DNA from: Hymenobacter chitinivorans DSM 11115
GTDB lineage: Bacteria > Bacteroidota > Bacteroidia > Cytophagales > Hymenobacteraceae
Direction: 5' to 3'
NCBI RefSeq assembly: GCF_002797555.1
Contig: NZ_PGFA01000003.1
Coordinates: 372,001-436,000, forward strand
Length of the DNA stretch: 64,000 nucleotides
The first letter of the stretch is position 1. Every line of letters begins with the position of its first letter. A program made the translations under genes and the position numbers. The notes beneath the pieces were generated by a model. The model ran no database searches. It was not told the origin of the DNA and worked only from the letters and a program-made list of their open reading frames with translations. Below, one piece after another: positions 6,677 to 59,197 of this stretch.

Positions 6677-7993
6677 ATGAAATACTTCTATTCTGCTATT
6701 CTTGCCACTGGTTTGCTGGCCACTGCTGCCTCCACCGCCCATGCCCAAAACGCGGCCCTGGATGCCCGTATTGCCAAGCTCTCCGCCGCTGAGGAAGCCA
6801 AAGTCATAGCCTGGCGGCGCGACTTCCACCAGAACCCGGAGCTGGGCAACGAGGAGACGCGCACGGCCGGCATTGTGGCTGCCCACCTCAAGAGCCTGGG
6901 CCTGGAAGTGCAAACCGGCGTGGGCCGCACCGGCGTGGTGGGCATTCTGCGCGGGGGCAAGCCCGGTCCGGTAGTCGCCCTGCGCGCCGATATGGACGGG
7001 CTGCCCGTCACGGAAACCTCCGGCGTCCCGTTTGCCTCCACCGTTAAAGCCACCTACCTGGGCCAGCCCGTGGGCGTGATGCACGCCTGCGGCCACGACG
7101 CCCACATGGCCATGCTGATGGGCGCGGCCGAGGTGCTGAGCCAGGTGAAAAAAGACTTGCCCGGCACCATCAAGTTCATTTTCCAGCCCGCTGAGGAAGG
7201 CTCGTTGCCCGGCGTGGTAGGCGGGGCCAAACTCATGATACAGGAAGGCGTGCTGGAAAAACCCAAGGTGGATGCCGTATTCGGGCTGCACATCAACGCC
7301 CAGACCGAAGTCGGCAACCTCTCATTCCGGCCCGGGGGTGAAATGGCGGCTTCCGACCGGTTTACCATCAAGGTCATTGGCAAAGGCGCCCACGGGGCCC
7401 GGCCCTGGAGCAGCGTGGACCCCGTGGTAACGGCCGCCCAGATTATCGTGGGCCTGCAAACCATCGTGAGCCGGCAGGTGAACCTGACCGATGATGCGGC
7501 CGTCGTGACGGTGGGCACGGTCAAGGGCGGGGTGCGCTACAACGTTATTCCGGCCGACGTGGAGCTGAGCGGCACCATCCGGACCTTCAACAAAAAGGCC
7601 CAGGAGCAGGTGTGGGCCGCCATCCGGCGCACCGCCACCGGCATTGCCGAAAGCGCCGGGGCCACCGTGGAGGTTGACATTGTGCCCTACGTGCCCGTGA
7701 CCTTCAACGACCTGCCCCTGACGGCCAAAATGCTGCCCACCCTGCAACGCGTGGCGGGCGGGGCGGCCCACGTGCAGGAAGTGAAAGTCAACACCTGGGC
7801 CGAGGACTTCTCTTTGTACCAGGAAAAGGTGCCCGGCGTGTTCGTCTTCCTGGGCGGCATGCGCAAGGGCGGCGACGTGGCCACCACCGCCGACCACCAC
7901 ACGGCCGGCTTCACCCTCGACGAAAGCGGCTTCACGCTGGGCGTCAAGACCCTGGCTACCCTGGCCGCCGACTACCTGAGCATGAAAAAATAG
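6677..7993 (+). CDS. Secreted M20-family amidohydrolase (copy 1)
   Basis: 438 residues from the ATG at 6677, which begins a signal peptide (YFYSAILATGLLATAASTAHAQ). An in-frame ATG at 6602 precedes it without signal character. M20D (hippurate hydrolase/aminoacylase) features: WRRDFHQNPELGNEE, ALRADMDGLPV, HACGHDAHMAML with metal-binding His/Asp, QPAEEG with the general base Glu, and a final HHTAGF. Cleaves amide bonds of N-acyl amino acids or similar compounds, here outside the cytoplasm. A TACCTTGC box at 6640-6647 resembles a -7 element. Tandem copy at 8057 has the same length. Confidence 0.92.
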   Translation: MKYFYSAILATGLLATAASTAHAQNAALDARIAKLSAAEEAKVIAWRRDFHQNPELGNEETRTAGIVAAHLKSLGLEVQTGVGRTGVVGILRGGKPGPVVALRADMDGLPVTETSGVPFASTVKATYLGQPVGVMHACGHDAHMAMLMGAAEVLSQVKKDLPGTIKFIFQPAEEGSLPGVVGGAKLMIQEGVLEKPKVDAVFGLHINAQTEVGNLSFRPGGEMAASDRFTIKVIGKGAHGARPWSSVDPVVTAAQIIVGLQTIVSRQVNLTDDAAVVTVGTVKGGVRYNVIPADVELSGTIRTFNKKAQEQVWAAIRRTATGIAESAGATVEVDIVPYVPVTFNDLPLTAKMLPTLQRVAGGAAHVQEVKVNTWAEDFSLYQEKVPGVFVFLGGMRKGGDVATTADHHTAGFTLDESGFTLGVKTLATLAADYLSMKK

Positions 7994-8056
7994 CCGGCCG
8001 GCAACCTTCCGCGCCCTTTCGTTTCTATCCCCCGATTCTACCTGACCTTTCCACCG

Positions 8057-9373
8057 ATGAAGCCAACTCAGTACGCCCTGGCCGTCCTGCTCACGGGCGC
8101 CTTGCTGCCCCACCATACCCAGGCCCAAAACGCGGCCCTGGATGCCCGCATTGCCAAGCTCTCCGCCGCTGAGGAGGCCAAAGTCATAGCCTGGCGGCGC
8201 GACTTCCACCAAAACCCGGAGCTGGGCAACGAGGAGACGCGCACGGCCGGCATCGTGGCTGCCCACCTCAAGAGCCTGGGCCTGGAAGTGCAAACCGGCG
8301 TGGGCCGCACCGGCGTGGTAGGCATTCTGCGCGGCGGCAAGCCCGGTCCGGTAGTCGCCCTGCGCGCCGATATGGATGGCCTGCCCGTCACCGAAAAGAA
8401 TGAATTGCCCTTCGCCAGCAAGGTCCGCACCCAGTACAACGGGCAGGAAGTGGGCGTAATGCACGCCTGCGGCCACGACACCCACGTAGCCATGCTCATG
8501 GGCGCGGCCGAGGTCTTGAGTCAGGTGAAAAAAGACTTGCCCGGCACCATCAAGTTTATTTTCCAGCCCGCCGAAGAGGGTTCTTTGCCCGGCGTGGAAG
8601 GCGGAGCCAAGCTCATGGTGAAAGAAGGCATCATGGAAAATCCCAAGGTCGACGCCGTGTTCGGGGTTCATATCAACGCCCAGACCGAAGTCGGGACGCT
8701 GAAGTACCGGCCGGGCGGCGAAATGGCGGCTTCCGACGTCTTTACCATTAAAGTAAAAGGCAAATCGGCCCACGGCGCCTACCCCTGGCTGAGCGTGGAC
8801 CCGGTGGTAGTGGCGTCCCAGATTGTGATGGGTCTGCAAACCATTGTGAGCCGGCAAACCCAGCTCACCGAAGACGCGGCCGTTATTACCGTGGGCATGG
8901 TGCACGGCGGGGTCCGCAACAACATCATCCCCGAGCAGGTGGAGCTGACGGGCACGATTCGCACGCTCAACAAGGACATGCAGCGCAAAATCTGGGAGGA
9001 CATCCGCCGTACGGCCACCAACATTGCCGAAAGTGCCCAGGCCACGGCCGAAGTCGACATCGTGAACTACACGCCCGTGACCTTCAACGACGTGAAGCTG
9101 ACCGAGCGGATGCTGCCTTCCTTGCGCACCGCCGCCGGCGCCGAACGTAAAGTGGTGCTGCAAAAGGCCGTAACCGGGGCCGAGGACTTTGCCTTCTACC
9201 AGGAAAAAGCACCCGGCCTGTTCGTTTTCGTGGGCGGCATGACGCCCGGCACCAACCCGGCCACCACCGCCCCCCACCACACGGCCGGCTTCCGCATCGA
9301 CGAAAGTGGGCTGACGCTGGGCGTTAAAACCCTGGCCACCCTGGCCGCTGATTATTTAACTCTGAAAAAGTAA
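8057..9373 (+). CDS. Secreted M20-family amidohydrolase (copy 2)
   Basis: 438 residues, the same length as the copy exactly 1380 bp upstream, with its own signal peptide (YALAVLLTGALLPHHTQAQ). All family motifs are kept (DMDGLPV, HACGHDTH, QPAEEG, PHHTAGF). The region from the mature N-terminus (about 8126) to the DMDGLPVTE codons (about 8395) is nearly identical in DNA to copy 1, while both the signal peptides and the later parts differ clearly. Ends 9 bp before the ATP-grasp gene and may be co-transcribed with it. Confidence 0.92.
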   Translation: MKPTQYALAVLLTGALLPHHTQAQNAALDARIAKLSAAEEAKVIAWRRDFHQNPELGNEETRTAGIVAAHLKSLGLEVQTGVGRTGVVGILRGGKPGPVVALRADMDGLPVTEKNELPFASKVRTQYNGQEVGVMHACGHDTHVAMLMGAAEVLSQVKKDLPGTIKFIFQPAEEGSLPGVEGGAKLMVKEGIMENPKVDAVFGVHINAQTEVGTLKYRPGGEMAASDVFTIKVKGKSAHGAYPWLSVDPVVVASQIVMGLQTIVSRQTQLTEDAAVITVGMVHGGVRNNIIPEQVELTGTIRTLNKDMQRKIWEDIRRTATNIAESAQATAEVDIVNYTPVTFNDVKLTERMLPSLRTAAGAERKVVLQKAVTGAEDFAFYQEKAPGLFVFVGGMTPGTNPATTAPHHTAGFRIDESGLTLGVKTLATLAADYLTLKK

Positions 9374-18120: not shown

Positions 18121-19350
18121 TTAGGTTAACGACAACGACAAGGCCACATCCGACTCCGTAACGAGCGTAATAGGCTTGGGAATAGCGGCCGACACGGTTT
18201 CCTGGGCCTGAAGCAGGGCTTCGGCATAAGCCGCGTCCAGCACGCGGGTCAGGCCGGGGTCGGGGGCGGTAGTGTCGGCGTCCCAGAGGCCGGCGCGGTG
18301 CCAGGGCGTGAGGTGGTCCCAGTCGGGCCGGTCGATAATGGGGTAGAGGCAGGCCCCGAATACGGGCACGCCGGCCTGCAAAGCCGCCGCGCACTCCCGC
18401 CCGATCATCTCAATCCAGGCGGGCCGGTCGATGCCGGGGTGGCTGGTTTCGGTGAGCACCACGGGGCGCTGGTAGCGCTGCCAGGCCCGGGTCAGCAGGA
18501 AGCTCAGGGGCCGGAAGCGCGGGTCGTTGAAGTCGTTGGCCCAGGGCAGGGTCTGGTGCGGGTCGAGCTGCCACTGGTTGTCGTAGTAATAGTTAAAGCC
18601 TAGCAAATCGAGGAATTCGGGGCGCCCGCCCAGGTCGGGGCAGAGGCGGCCAGACAGCATATCGACGGCCTGAAACTGGTTTTCGTCGAACTCTCGGGCC
18701 CGCTGCCGCAGGTGGGCGTCGGCGCCGGGCGCGGCCACGATGTGAATCAGGGGCTCGGTGGTCAGGATGCGGATGCCCGGGTCGGCTTCGCGCAGGGCGG
18801 CCACGCCTTCAATGTAGGCCCGCATCAGGCCGCGCTTCACTTCCCAGCCCTGGCCCACGCAGTAGGGCGAGGTGCCGCGCACGTCGCCGCCCAGCCAGCT
18901 CATGAAGCTCACCTCGTTGATGGGCGTCACGATGAGCGTATCGTCGGGGCGCTGGCCGCGGTAAAACTCCACGAAAGCCCGGCAGAGGTGGGCAAAGCGG
19001 CGGGCAAACATAGGGTGCAGGGGCGTCAAATCGTCGGGGTAGCCGAAGTGGCACAGGTCCCAGATCTGCTGAATGCCGTGGCGCCGGCCCGCGTCGAGCA
19101 TGACTTGCACCGTGCTCCAGTCGTACTGATACGGTACTTTCTCGACCTGGCTCCAGCGGATGCCTTCCCGCACGCTGCCGATATTGAAGGGTTGCAGGTC
19201 CTGGTAATCGGCGTCGAGGCGCTGCAGGTGGCCGGTCAGGGTCAGGAAATCAACCCGGTGCCCGAAGGCATTGAGCTGGTCGGTGCATTCAAAGCCACCC
19301 ATCCAGAAAGAGCGAAACGGATTCGTGTGCGTCGTAGCGGAAGACGTCAT
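18121..19350 (-). CDS. Glycoside hydrolase, GH1-like (clan GH-A)
   Basis: 409 residues, no signal peptide, so cytosolic. (beta/alpha)8 pattern: MGGFECTDQLN, VREGIRWSQVEK, QIWDLCHFGYPDDL, the acid/base Glu in TPINEVSF, LGFNYYYDNQW, and the nucleophile Glu in PVVLTETSHPG. These match the NEP/TEN(G) pair of GH1/clan-A enzymes, though the sequence is compact and diverged. Probably cleaves a glycoside imported or made inside the cell. The 391-bp upstream region holds a phased operator-like array (19543-19704). Confidence 0.8.
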   Translation of the reverse strand: MTSSATTHTNPFRSFWMGGFECTDQLNAFGHRVDFLTLTGHLQRLDADYQDLQPFNIGSVREGIRWSQVEKVPYQYDWSTVQVMLDAGRRHGIQQIWDLCHFGYPDDLTPLHPMFARRFAHLCRAFVEFYRGQRPDDTLIVTPINEVSFMSWLGGDVRGTSPYCVGQGWEVKRGLMRAYIEGVAALREADPGIRILTTEPLIHIVAAPGADAHLRQRAREFDENQFQAVDMLSGRLCPDLGGRPEFLDLLGFNYYYDNQWQLDPHQTLPWANDFNDPRFRPLSFLLTRAWQRYQRPVVLTETSHPGIDRPAWIEMIGRECAAALQAGVPVFGACLYPIIDRPDWDHLTPWHRAGLWDADTTAPDPGLTRVLDAAYAEALLQAQETVSAAIPKPITLVTESDVALSLSLT

Positions 19351-19542
19351 AAGCGCAGGGTTTTACGGGCAAAATAAGGCGGCAGCCCGGCCTTGCCAAG
19401 CCCGACTACTGCCTAATGTACCTCAAAACGGCTGGATTGGTTGGGCTTACCCCGCCCCCTGCAGAGGCAAGCCAGCCGCGGCAGGCGCTTACCAAGCCCC
19501 ATAACTAGGCTTCAGGCCACGATAAAGCGGGCGGGCTACGAT

Positions 19543-19704
19543 GGTATGCGCTTCACTAATTTTATTCCAGATGGATACCATACTGGTATAAACACTAATA
19601 AAAATAATAGATGCGTATACCCAGCGGGTAGCCGCCATAGCCAAAACGACCAGTATGTATACCTATTCGGTATGCATGCTGGTCGTTTCAAAACTTTGTA
19701 TACC
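19543..19704. promoter_or_regulatory. Phased array of ATACC-N5-GGTAT operator-like sites, period 42 bp
   Basis: Full sites lie at 19575-19589 and 19659-19673. A site with one mismatch (ATACC-N5-GGTAG) lies at 19617-19631. A right half-site GGTAT lies at 19543 and a left half-site ATACC at 19700. The steps are 42, 42 and 42/41 bp, while the sequence between sites is not conserved. The site at 19659 is the centre of a 45-bp imperfect palindrome (19644-19688) bounded by AAACGACCAG / CTGGTCGTTT. The array lies 193-354 bp upstream of the glycosidase start, so it may control that gene. The binding protein is not identified. Confidence 0.85.
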
Positions 19705-19741
19705 TAATCAAGTGGCTACGTAACCGCCCGCTTTTCCGGCC

Positions 19742-20710
19742 TTAAATCTGGGGTGTTACCTGGTTGGTGGGCAGCTCCGTATCCCGGTCCTTGCCGGTCA
19801 GGCTCTTGGCTTCCACGAAAATGCGCTTGAACTCGGGATGGGCCGCCCGCAGGTGGTCCTGCAACGAGGCCACGGCTACTTCCACTTCCACGGCCGAGAG
19901 ATGGTCGTGAAAATCCACGTCGAGGGCCAGCACCACGTCGGCCGGGCCCAGGTACATCGTCAGCGGGGGGCGCACCTGCTCCACGCCGGGCTGCCGGCTC
20001 ACGATGCTCATCACGCTGTCGATGGTGGCGTCGTCGACACCGGTGCCCACCAGCAGGCCTTTCGTGCGGCTCACCAGGAACACGGCCACCAGCATCAGCA
20101 GCAGCCCGATGGCCACCGAGGCGCCGCCGTCGAAGTAGGGGTTGTTCAGGGCGTGGCCGAAGTACACACCCAGCAGCGCCAGCACCAGGCCCACCAGCGC
20201 GGCCAGGTTTTCGAGCACCGAGGCAAACACCGCCGGGTCCTTGCTCGTGCGCAGCTGCCCCCAGAAGCCCAGCCCGCTGCCGGCACCGGCCTGAGTCAGG
20301 GCTTTGGCGGCCAGCCAGAAGGCCCAGCCCTCAAACAGGATGGCCACGCCCAGCACGATGTAGTTCCAGAGCGGGTCGGTGAGGGGCTCGGGGTGCTCGA
20401 TGTGCTTGATGCCCTCATAAAACGACATACCGCCGCCGATGGCAAAAATCAGCACGGCCACAATTAGGCCCCAGAAGTACTGCTCCTTGCTGCGCCCGAA
20501 GGGGTGGCGCCGGTCGGCCGGCTTCTGGCTTTGCTTGATGCCGTAGAGCAGCAGCACACCGTTGCCGCTGTCTACCAGGGAGTGAATTCCTTCGGAAAGC
20601 ATGGCCGAGGAGCCCGTGAAATAGGCGGCTACGAATTTGGAAACGGCAATGCCAACGTTGGCCGCAATGCCCCCGAACAGGGCGGTTTTTGAAGAATTAG
20701 GATCTGCCAT
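19742..20710 (-). CDS. Cation diffusion facilitator, SLC30A9-like (copy 1)
   Basis: 322 residues, about six membrane helices then a cytosolic C-terminal domain (~210-300). Marks: SSAMLSEGIHSLVDSGNGVL with the H-x3-D metal site of TM2, RRHPFGRSKEQYFWG, and YFDGGASVAIGLLLM in TM5. HPFG..KEQYFW and the GI.HIEHPEPL loop fit the SLC30A9/TMEM163-like CDF branch. Exports or exchanges divalent metal ions, probably Zn. The C-terminus ends in a charged tail. Tandem with a paralog at 20775-21716. Confidence 0.88.
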   Translation of the reverse strand: MADPNSSKTALFGGIAANVGIAVSKFVAAYFTGSSAMLSEGIHSLVDSGNGVLLLYGIKQSQKPADRRHPFGRSKEQYFWGLIVAVLIFAIGGGMSFYEGIKHIEHPEPLTDPLWNYIVLGVAILFEGWAFWLAAKALTQAGAGSGLGFWGQLRTSKDPAVFASVLENLAALVGLVLALLGVYFGHALNNPYFDGGASVAIGLLLMLVAVFLVSRTKGLLVGTGVDDATIDSVMSIVSRQPGVEQVRPPLTMYLGPADVVLALDVDFHDHLSAVEVEVAVASLQDHLRAAHPEFKRIFVEAKSLTGKDRDTELPTNQVTPQI

Positions 20711-56855: not shown

Positions 56856-56968
56856 TTGATGATTGTTAATTGTTGATTGTTAATTGTTGATTGTTGGTTA
56901 TTGATTCAGAGGGGTAATAGAACGACTTAACAATCAGTAATTAACAATCACCAATCAACTAACAACTA
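56856..56968. repeat. Inverted repeat built from TGATTGTTAATTG words
   Basis: Between thiG and thiH. The left arm (56857-56904) consists of GATTGTTAATTGTT-like words repeated with a 14-bp step; the right arm (56927-56968) carries the complementary CTTAACAATCAGTAATTAAC and following words. About 20 of 22 bases in the core pair. Possible site for RNA processing or partial termination inside the operon. Confidence 0.75.
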
Positions 56969-59113: not shown

Positions 59114-59197
59114 TAGTTGTTAGTTGTTGGTTGTCAGTTGTTAGGCGTTCTGCTGTCGGTTGTGCTCTAACAACTGACAACCAACAACTAACAACTA
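59114..59197. repeat. Perfect 31-bp inverted repeat between thiC and thiD
   Basis: Arms 59114-59144 and 59167-59197 are exact reverse complements over 31 bp with a 22-base loop. They consist of TAGTTGTTAG / CTAACAACTA-type words. The element fills nearly all of the 89-bp gap. Could reduce read-through from thiC to thiD or protect the upstream RNA; no long T run follows. Confidence 0.95.

Follow-up and report, generated by a model that had tools for sequence, protein, structure and literature searches.

A 42-bp-phased palindrome array in Hymenobacter chitinivorans as a likely operator set of a Hymenobacter-specific family of XRE-type regulators

The window analyzed here, a 64,000-nt stretch of the Hymenobacter chitinivorans DSM 11115 genome (contig NZ_PGFA01000003.1, positions 372,001 to 436,000), contains an array of short gapped palindromes in the intergenic region between a cation diffusion facilitator (CDF) efflux gene and a glycosidase-like gene, both on the minus strand. 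The features of this region are listed below together with the gene of the candidate regulator, which lies outside the window in the same genome (G000; other G numbers denote the other genomes compared).

18121-19350, minus strand: glycosidase-like gene (409 aa), putative target, weak GH35-type similarity
19524-19534, plus strand: left arm of an 11-bp inverted repeat flanking the array, AAAGCGGGCGG
19543-19547, plus strand: outer left half-site GGTAT, 32 bp ahead of the next ATACC, matching the full units
19573-19589, plus strand: palindromic site 1, GGATACC-ATACT-GGTAT, as read from the sequence
19615-19631, plus strand: palindromic site 2, GTATACC-CAGCG-GGTAG, 42 bp after site 1
19644-19688, minus strand: 45-bp palindrome around site 3, a minus-strand stem-loop with a TTTT tail
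19657-19673, plus strand: palindromic site 3, GTATACC-TATTC-GGTAT, 42 bp after site 2
19698-19704, plus strand: outer right half-site GTATACC, 41 bp after site 3
19724-19734, plus strand: right arm of the 11-bp inverted repeat flanking the array, CCGCCCGCTTT
19742-20710, minus strand: CDF gene (PF01545, E 1e-40), 3' end close to the array
G000:C4:403790-404431: L046, gene of an XRE-type HTH protein, candidate regulator

All site positions were re-read and the phased arrangement reported in the initial annotation was confirmed. GGTAT occurs at 19543, 19585 and 19669 and GGTAG at 19627 (steps of 42, 42 and 42 bp), while ATACC occurs at 19575, 19617, 19659 and 19700 (steps of 42, 42 and 41 bp), giving GGTAT-N27-ATACC units with N5 between them and a period of 42 bp with one step of 41. 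Allowing up to one mismatch, ATACC-N5-GGTAT was found three times in the 64-kb window, each time within the array, compared with an average of 0.63 in shuffled sequences. The exact two-unit string GGTAT-N27-ATACC-N5-GGTAT-N27-ATACC would be expected from base composition about 1e-6 times in 5.87 Mb and was observed twice, once here and once upstream of a kynureninase gene (kynU). There was no second MITE/REP-like copy of the array in the genome, where the next-best matches covered 17-24 bases. Rfam gave nothing above threshold (a sub-threshold NiCo-riboswitch match lay inside the coding gene) and PADLOC gave no convincing match. A CRISPR reading was rejected since the gapped palindromes, at only 15 bp, are too short for CRISPR repeats. 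The 11-bp inverted repeat around the array was not seen at the arrays of other species.

The glycosidase-like gene had been described as GH1-like, a label that the protein does not bear out: it matched no Pfam family at E<=0.1, GH1 included, and showed only weak similarity to GH35 proteins and beta-galactosidases. Simple blocking of a promoter at this gene is uncertain, given the position of the array, 193-354 bp ahead of the start codon. The 45-bp palindrome noted earlier around the 19659 site was found again, with arms of 20 nt each (19644-19663 and 19669-19688) which are 90% complementary. A stem-loop with a T-rich tail was present at the efflux-proximal end in all four species with an array at this gene (G000, G005, G014 and G015), with quite different arms; in G014 the stem was kept and the ATACC core lost, whereas in the other three species an operator-type site lies inside the stem. 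This palindrome probably serves the efflux gene as intrinsic terminator and has a putative operator site inside it, although extended palindromes were also observed in some regulator promoters (L048, L078), which leaves the terminator reading likely rather than certain.

To count the motif genome-wide had been proposed in the initial annotation. G000 contains five exact ATACC-N5-GGTAT sites, three of them in arrays (two here and one at C4:213590) and two isolated. The site at C4:213590 is the middle of a second array with this geometry, some 85 bp ahead of kynU. This kynU array was found in G000 and G014 and in none of the 9 other genomes read (11 read in all). Across 11 genomes TATACC-N4..7-GGTATA gave 34 forward matches, compared with 2 for the reversed control. 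When 120 genomes of the genus were searched for two consecutive units with at most two mismatches, the regulator genes not being given, arrays were returned from G000, G015 and G113 only, and those of G015 and G113 lie directly upstream of XRE-type HTH genes.

The expectation that the array would recur upstream of orthologous glycosidase genes held for 4 of the 32 orthologues and failed for the other 28. The phased TATACC score was 37 in G000, 33 in G005, 31 in G015 and 27 in G014, whereas none of the 28 upstream regions without an array exceeded 24. The arrays of G005 and G015 are in the same position as that of G000 and the G014 array is decayed, while the spacers cannot be aligned among the species, which agrees with the earlier proposal of selection on the sites and their spacing. 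A DNA similarity search of the 120 genomes with the array itself returned no homologue, apart from one chance match of 35 bases. The same four species hold the closest regulator orthologues, 85-86% identical to L046, or in G014 a frameshifted one; a separate comparison of L046 with the G015 protein gave 89% identity. In the G014 copy, L087 (G014:C1:1464664-1464927), the HTH is intact and the C-terminal half is frameshifted, possibly through a sequencing error; G014 also has the weakest of the four arrays at the glycosidase-like gene. Since the four genomes are close relatives, the co-occurrence of array and regulator is in part shared descent. G039 has a regulator 79% identical to L046 with GTATACC operators, yet no array at either the glycosidase-like gene or kynU.

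The half-site in the array is the one that belongs to L046 and its closest orthologues, and the same TGTATACC is found in the L046 promoter. The putative operator there reads TGTATACC-N6-GATAG, a poor palindrome on one side, and is repeated at 43-bp rather than 42-bp steps. By eye, the neighbors of L046 are one paralogue, a dehydrogenase-like gene and a HAD-like gene. About a dozen weaker paralogues of L046 occur in G000; upstream of the more distant ones there are inverted repeats too, spelled differently and spaced less regularly. All named records of close family members are from Hymenobacter, and a class sample yielded one marginal match outside the genus. The proteins are 200-240 aa long with a predicted C-terminal helical bundle, and there are about 10 or more paralogues per genome. 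Profile and fold comparisons place the family among the XRE-type HTH regulators: P0002 exceeds the gathering scores of both HTH_31 and HTH_3 with the other family proteins just below, residues 1-65 matched XRE, HigA and C proteins in fold searches, and the predicted structure (mean pLDDT 87) consists of an XRE HTH fold followed by the C-terminal bundle, which itself returned generic matches only.

Upstream arrays accompany nearly all genes of this family that were read, each member having its own half-site. Gapped palindromes, mostly in arrays with steps of 41-44 bp, were found upstream of the 27 closest members, with half-sites that include GTATACC, TTATACC, TTCTACC, GCCTACC, GTTTACC, GTCTACG, CCCTACC and others. 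In a motif-blind scoring of the 250 bp upstream of these 27 genes for a phased array (maximum score 42, six shuffles per gene), 22 scored 30-42 and each of these exceeded the best of its own six shuffles (26-30). The remaining five (L064, L069, L073, L075 and L087) gave no clear array score and have fewer or irregularly spaced sites. Family arrays have periods of 41-45 bp and gaps of mostly 5-7 bp; half-site starts are 12-14 bp apart within a palindrome and neighboring palindromes 28-31 bp apart. Two named records outside the set from which the pattern was drawn (L167, L168) showed the same kind of array and matching helix residues. L047 (G000:C4:402835-403413) and L048 (G000:C1:1097109-1097711) have the same 30 C-terminal residues, PDPVATATAGRLLAARVAGLRATLALLPSA, but differ in helices and operators; gene conversion or a domain swap is possible. 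Just upstream of the intact L048 lies L049 (G000:C1:1096533-1096898), a broken family member with two TAG stops.

When HTH helices 2-3 were left out of the family tree, about 15 changes of the half-site label were required. Almost all independent pairs showed recognition-helix residues changing together with the half-site, and none showed a change in the opposite direction. In L064 numbering, threonine at residue 46 pairs with A at the third base, and residue 38 is threonine with TTC and methionine or tyrosine with GC, with two or three independent contrasts for each of these. Each residue-base pairing is represented by one to three independent contrasts, all in one direction and none significant alone, and the half-sites were labeled by eye, although the motif-blind scoring recovered the same motif in most cases. 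With so few pairs we have to regard this co-variation as suggestive that half-sites follow recognition-helix residues.

From these comparisons we consider it likely that the array is an operator set of a member of this Hymenobacter-specific XRE-type family, most likely L046. One dimer would bind each palindrome, with half-site starts 12-13 bp apart, and adjacent dimers, separated by about four helical turns and placed on the same side of the DNA, would cooperate, perhaps via the predicted C-terminal helical bundle. The earlier suggestion of a multimeric regulator, which would bind repeatedly along one DNA face, is supported. L046 would repress its own gene, autoregulation being common among XRE proteins, and would also control the glycosidase-like gene and kynU. 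The proposal of a sugar-responsive LacI, TetR or GntR regulator was not upheld: such regulators can bind phased palindromes, but the regulators linked to this motif are of XRE type, no LacI, TetR or GntR gene was present among the neighbors of any array read, and the second putative target is a kynureninase gene and not a sugar gene.

The same half-site is also used by another XRE family, so that the regulator need not be L046. In G022 and G046, HipB-like XRE genes have TATACC-N6-GGTATA pairs 41 bp apart directly upstream (L127:2045-2110, L128:2044-2110), and in G065 a TATACC array with nearly identical spacers (L117:1960-2110) precedes a HipA-like kinase gene (PF20613) with no adjacent member of the L046 family. 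E. coli HipB itself binds cooperatively to four TATCC-N8-GGATA operators at the hipBA promoter (PMC3376134). An operator set for such a HipB-like antitoxin, or another XRE protein with this half-site, is nevertheless unlikely, as the array at the glycosidase-like gene tracks the L046 orthologues and G022 and G046 have none there. HipB resembles L046 in its XRE-type HTH, in the multiple palindromic operators (putative for L046) ahead of its own gene and in the distance between half-site starts (13 bp for HipB, 12-14 bp for the L046 family). Its O1 and O2 operators, however, are 28 bp apart as counted in the oligonucleotide of PMC3376134, compared with 41-44 bp in the L046 family, and it has the toxin HipA as partner whereas no toxin gene adjoins L046. 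HipB also differs from the L046 family in the latter's length, C-terminal bundle, numerous paralogues and member-specific half-sites, and the NCBIfam model couple_hipB gave the family 16-27 bits, below its cut-off of 71.65. The controllers C.Esp1396I, C.AhdI and C.BclI have an HTH fold similar to that of the L046 family. Restriction-modification C proteins are autoregulated through repeated palindromes but are about 75 aa long with a compact operator pair, and by inspection there were no restriction-modification genes near L046.

Two further readings, both very improbable in our judgement, dispense with such an operator function. Palindromic repeats of this period are common in the genome: in the Tandem Repeats Finder (TRF) output for 864 kb sampled from G000, period 21 with 25 arrays and period 42 with 15 were the commonest classes, and period 21 also came first in the samples of G037 and G015. 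Three-site palindrome arrays of any sequence in the same 864 kb numbered nine at period 42, whereas most other periods gave none or one, so that the 42-bp period alone counts for less than the motif does. Chance matches in coding sequence probably explain two of the nine, and most of the others are minisatellites. The window itself has one such array at 2634-2930, built on CCGGCACCGGTGCCGG palindromes and with spacers that are in part related (0.57 identity); it belongs to the minisatellites common in G000. A degenerate, regulator-free 21/42-bp minisatellite would nevertheless not account for spacers that are unrelated in the array (mean identity 0.33 vs 0.28 expected), as the initial annotation had stated, which together with the 0.57 of the other array argues against a fresh minisatellite; nor would it account for sites conserved across species when the spacers are not, or for the exact motif at kynU and in HTH promoters. 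The array might instead serve mainly as a chromosome organizer or transcription insulator, in which case the protein would bridge a small number of distant arrays and the palindromes would act as terminators. That there are only few arrays per genome and half-site is in keeping with this, as are the terminator-like hairpin at site 3 in four species and an array in G065 (G065:C114; L126:1930-2110) in an odd location for an operator, between the convergent 3' ends of an amine oxidoreductase gene and an exonuclease-like gene. The strongest arrays, however, are directly upstream of regulator genes, as is typical of autoregulation.

Other intergenic 21/42-bp palindromic arrays of differing sequence were seen in G000 at L181:14524-14770, L189:1856-2170, L196:15051-15150, L197:10740-10950 and L203:13396-13790, and multiples of 21 are the prevailing periods in TRF output from Hymenobacter. 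The window contains no gene of the HTH family, nor was one seen near several other 21/42-bp minisatellites. Operator arrays, which share the 42-bp step, may derive from such repeats; in G065 their spacers are partly alike, as would fit an origin through tandem duplication and later decay of the spacers.

A large family confined to one genus, in which each member has a long, phased and differently spelled operator array, was absent from the open-access literature searched. Because each gene carries its own putative operators, the family offers natural data for learning which base is read by which recognition-helix residue, and orthogonal repressor-operator pairs might be drawn from it. How dimers about 145 angstrom apart would cooperate is a question raised by the four-turn spacing. 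A wider reading, which we hold only tentatively and think rather doubtful, is that the family proteins polymerize or bridge along their 42-44 bp arrays, forming about 10 or more mutually exclusive, self-labeled pairs per genome with a recognition code that could be read from genomes.

Elsewhere in the window, two copies of about 1.3 kb at 6738-9372, 72-96% alike and spaced 1380 bp apart, represent a tandem gene duplication, and inverted repeats built from TAGTTGTTAGTTG-like and TGATTGTTAATTG-like repeats are found at 59114-59197 and 56860-56964.
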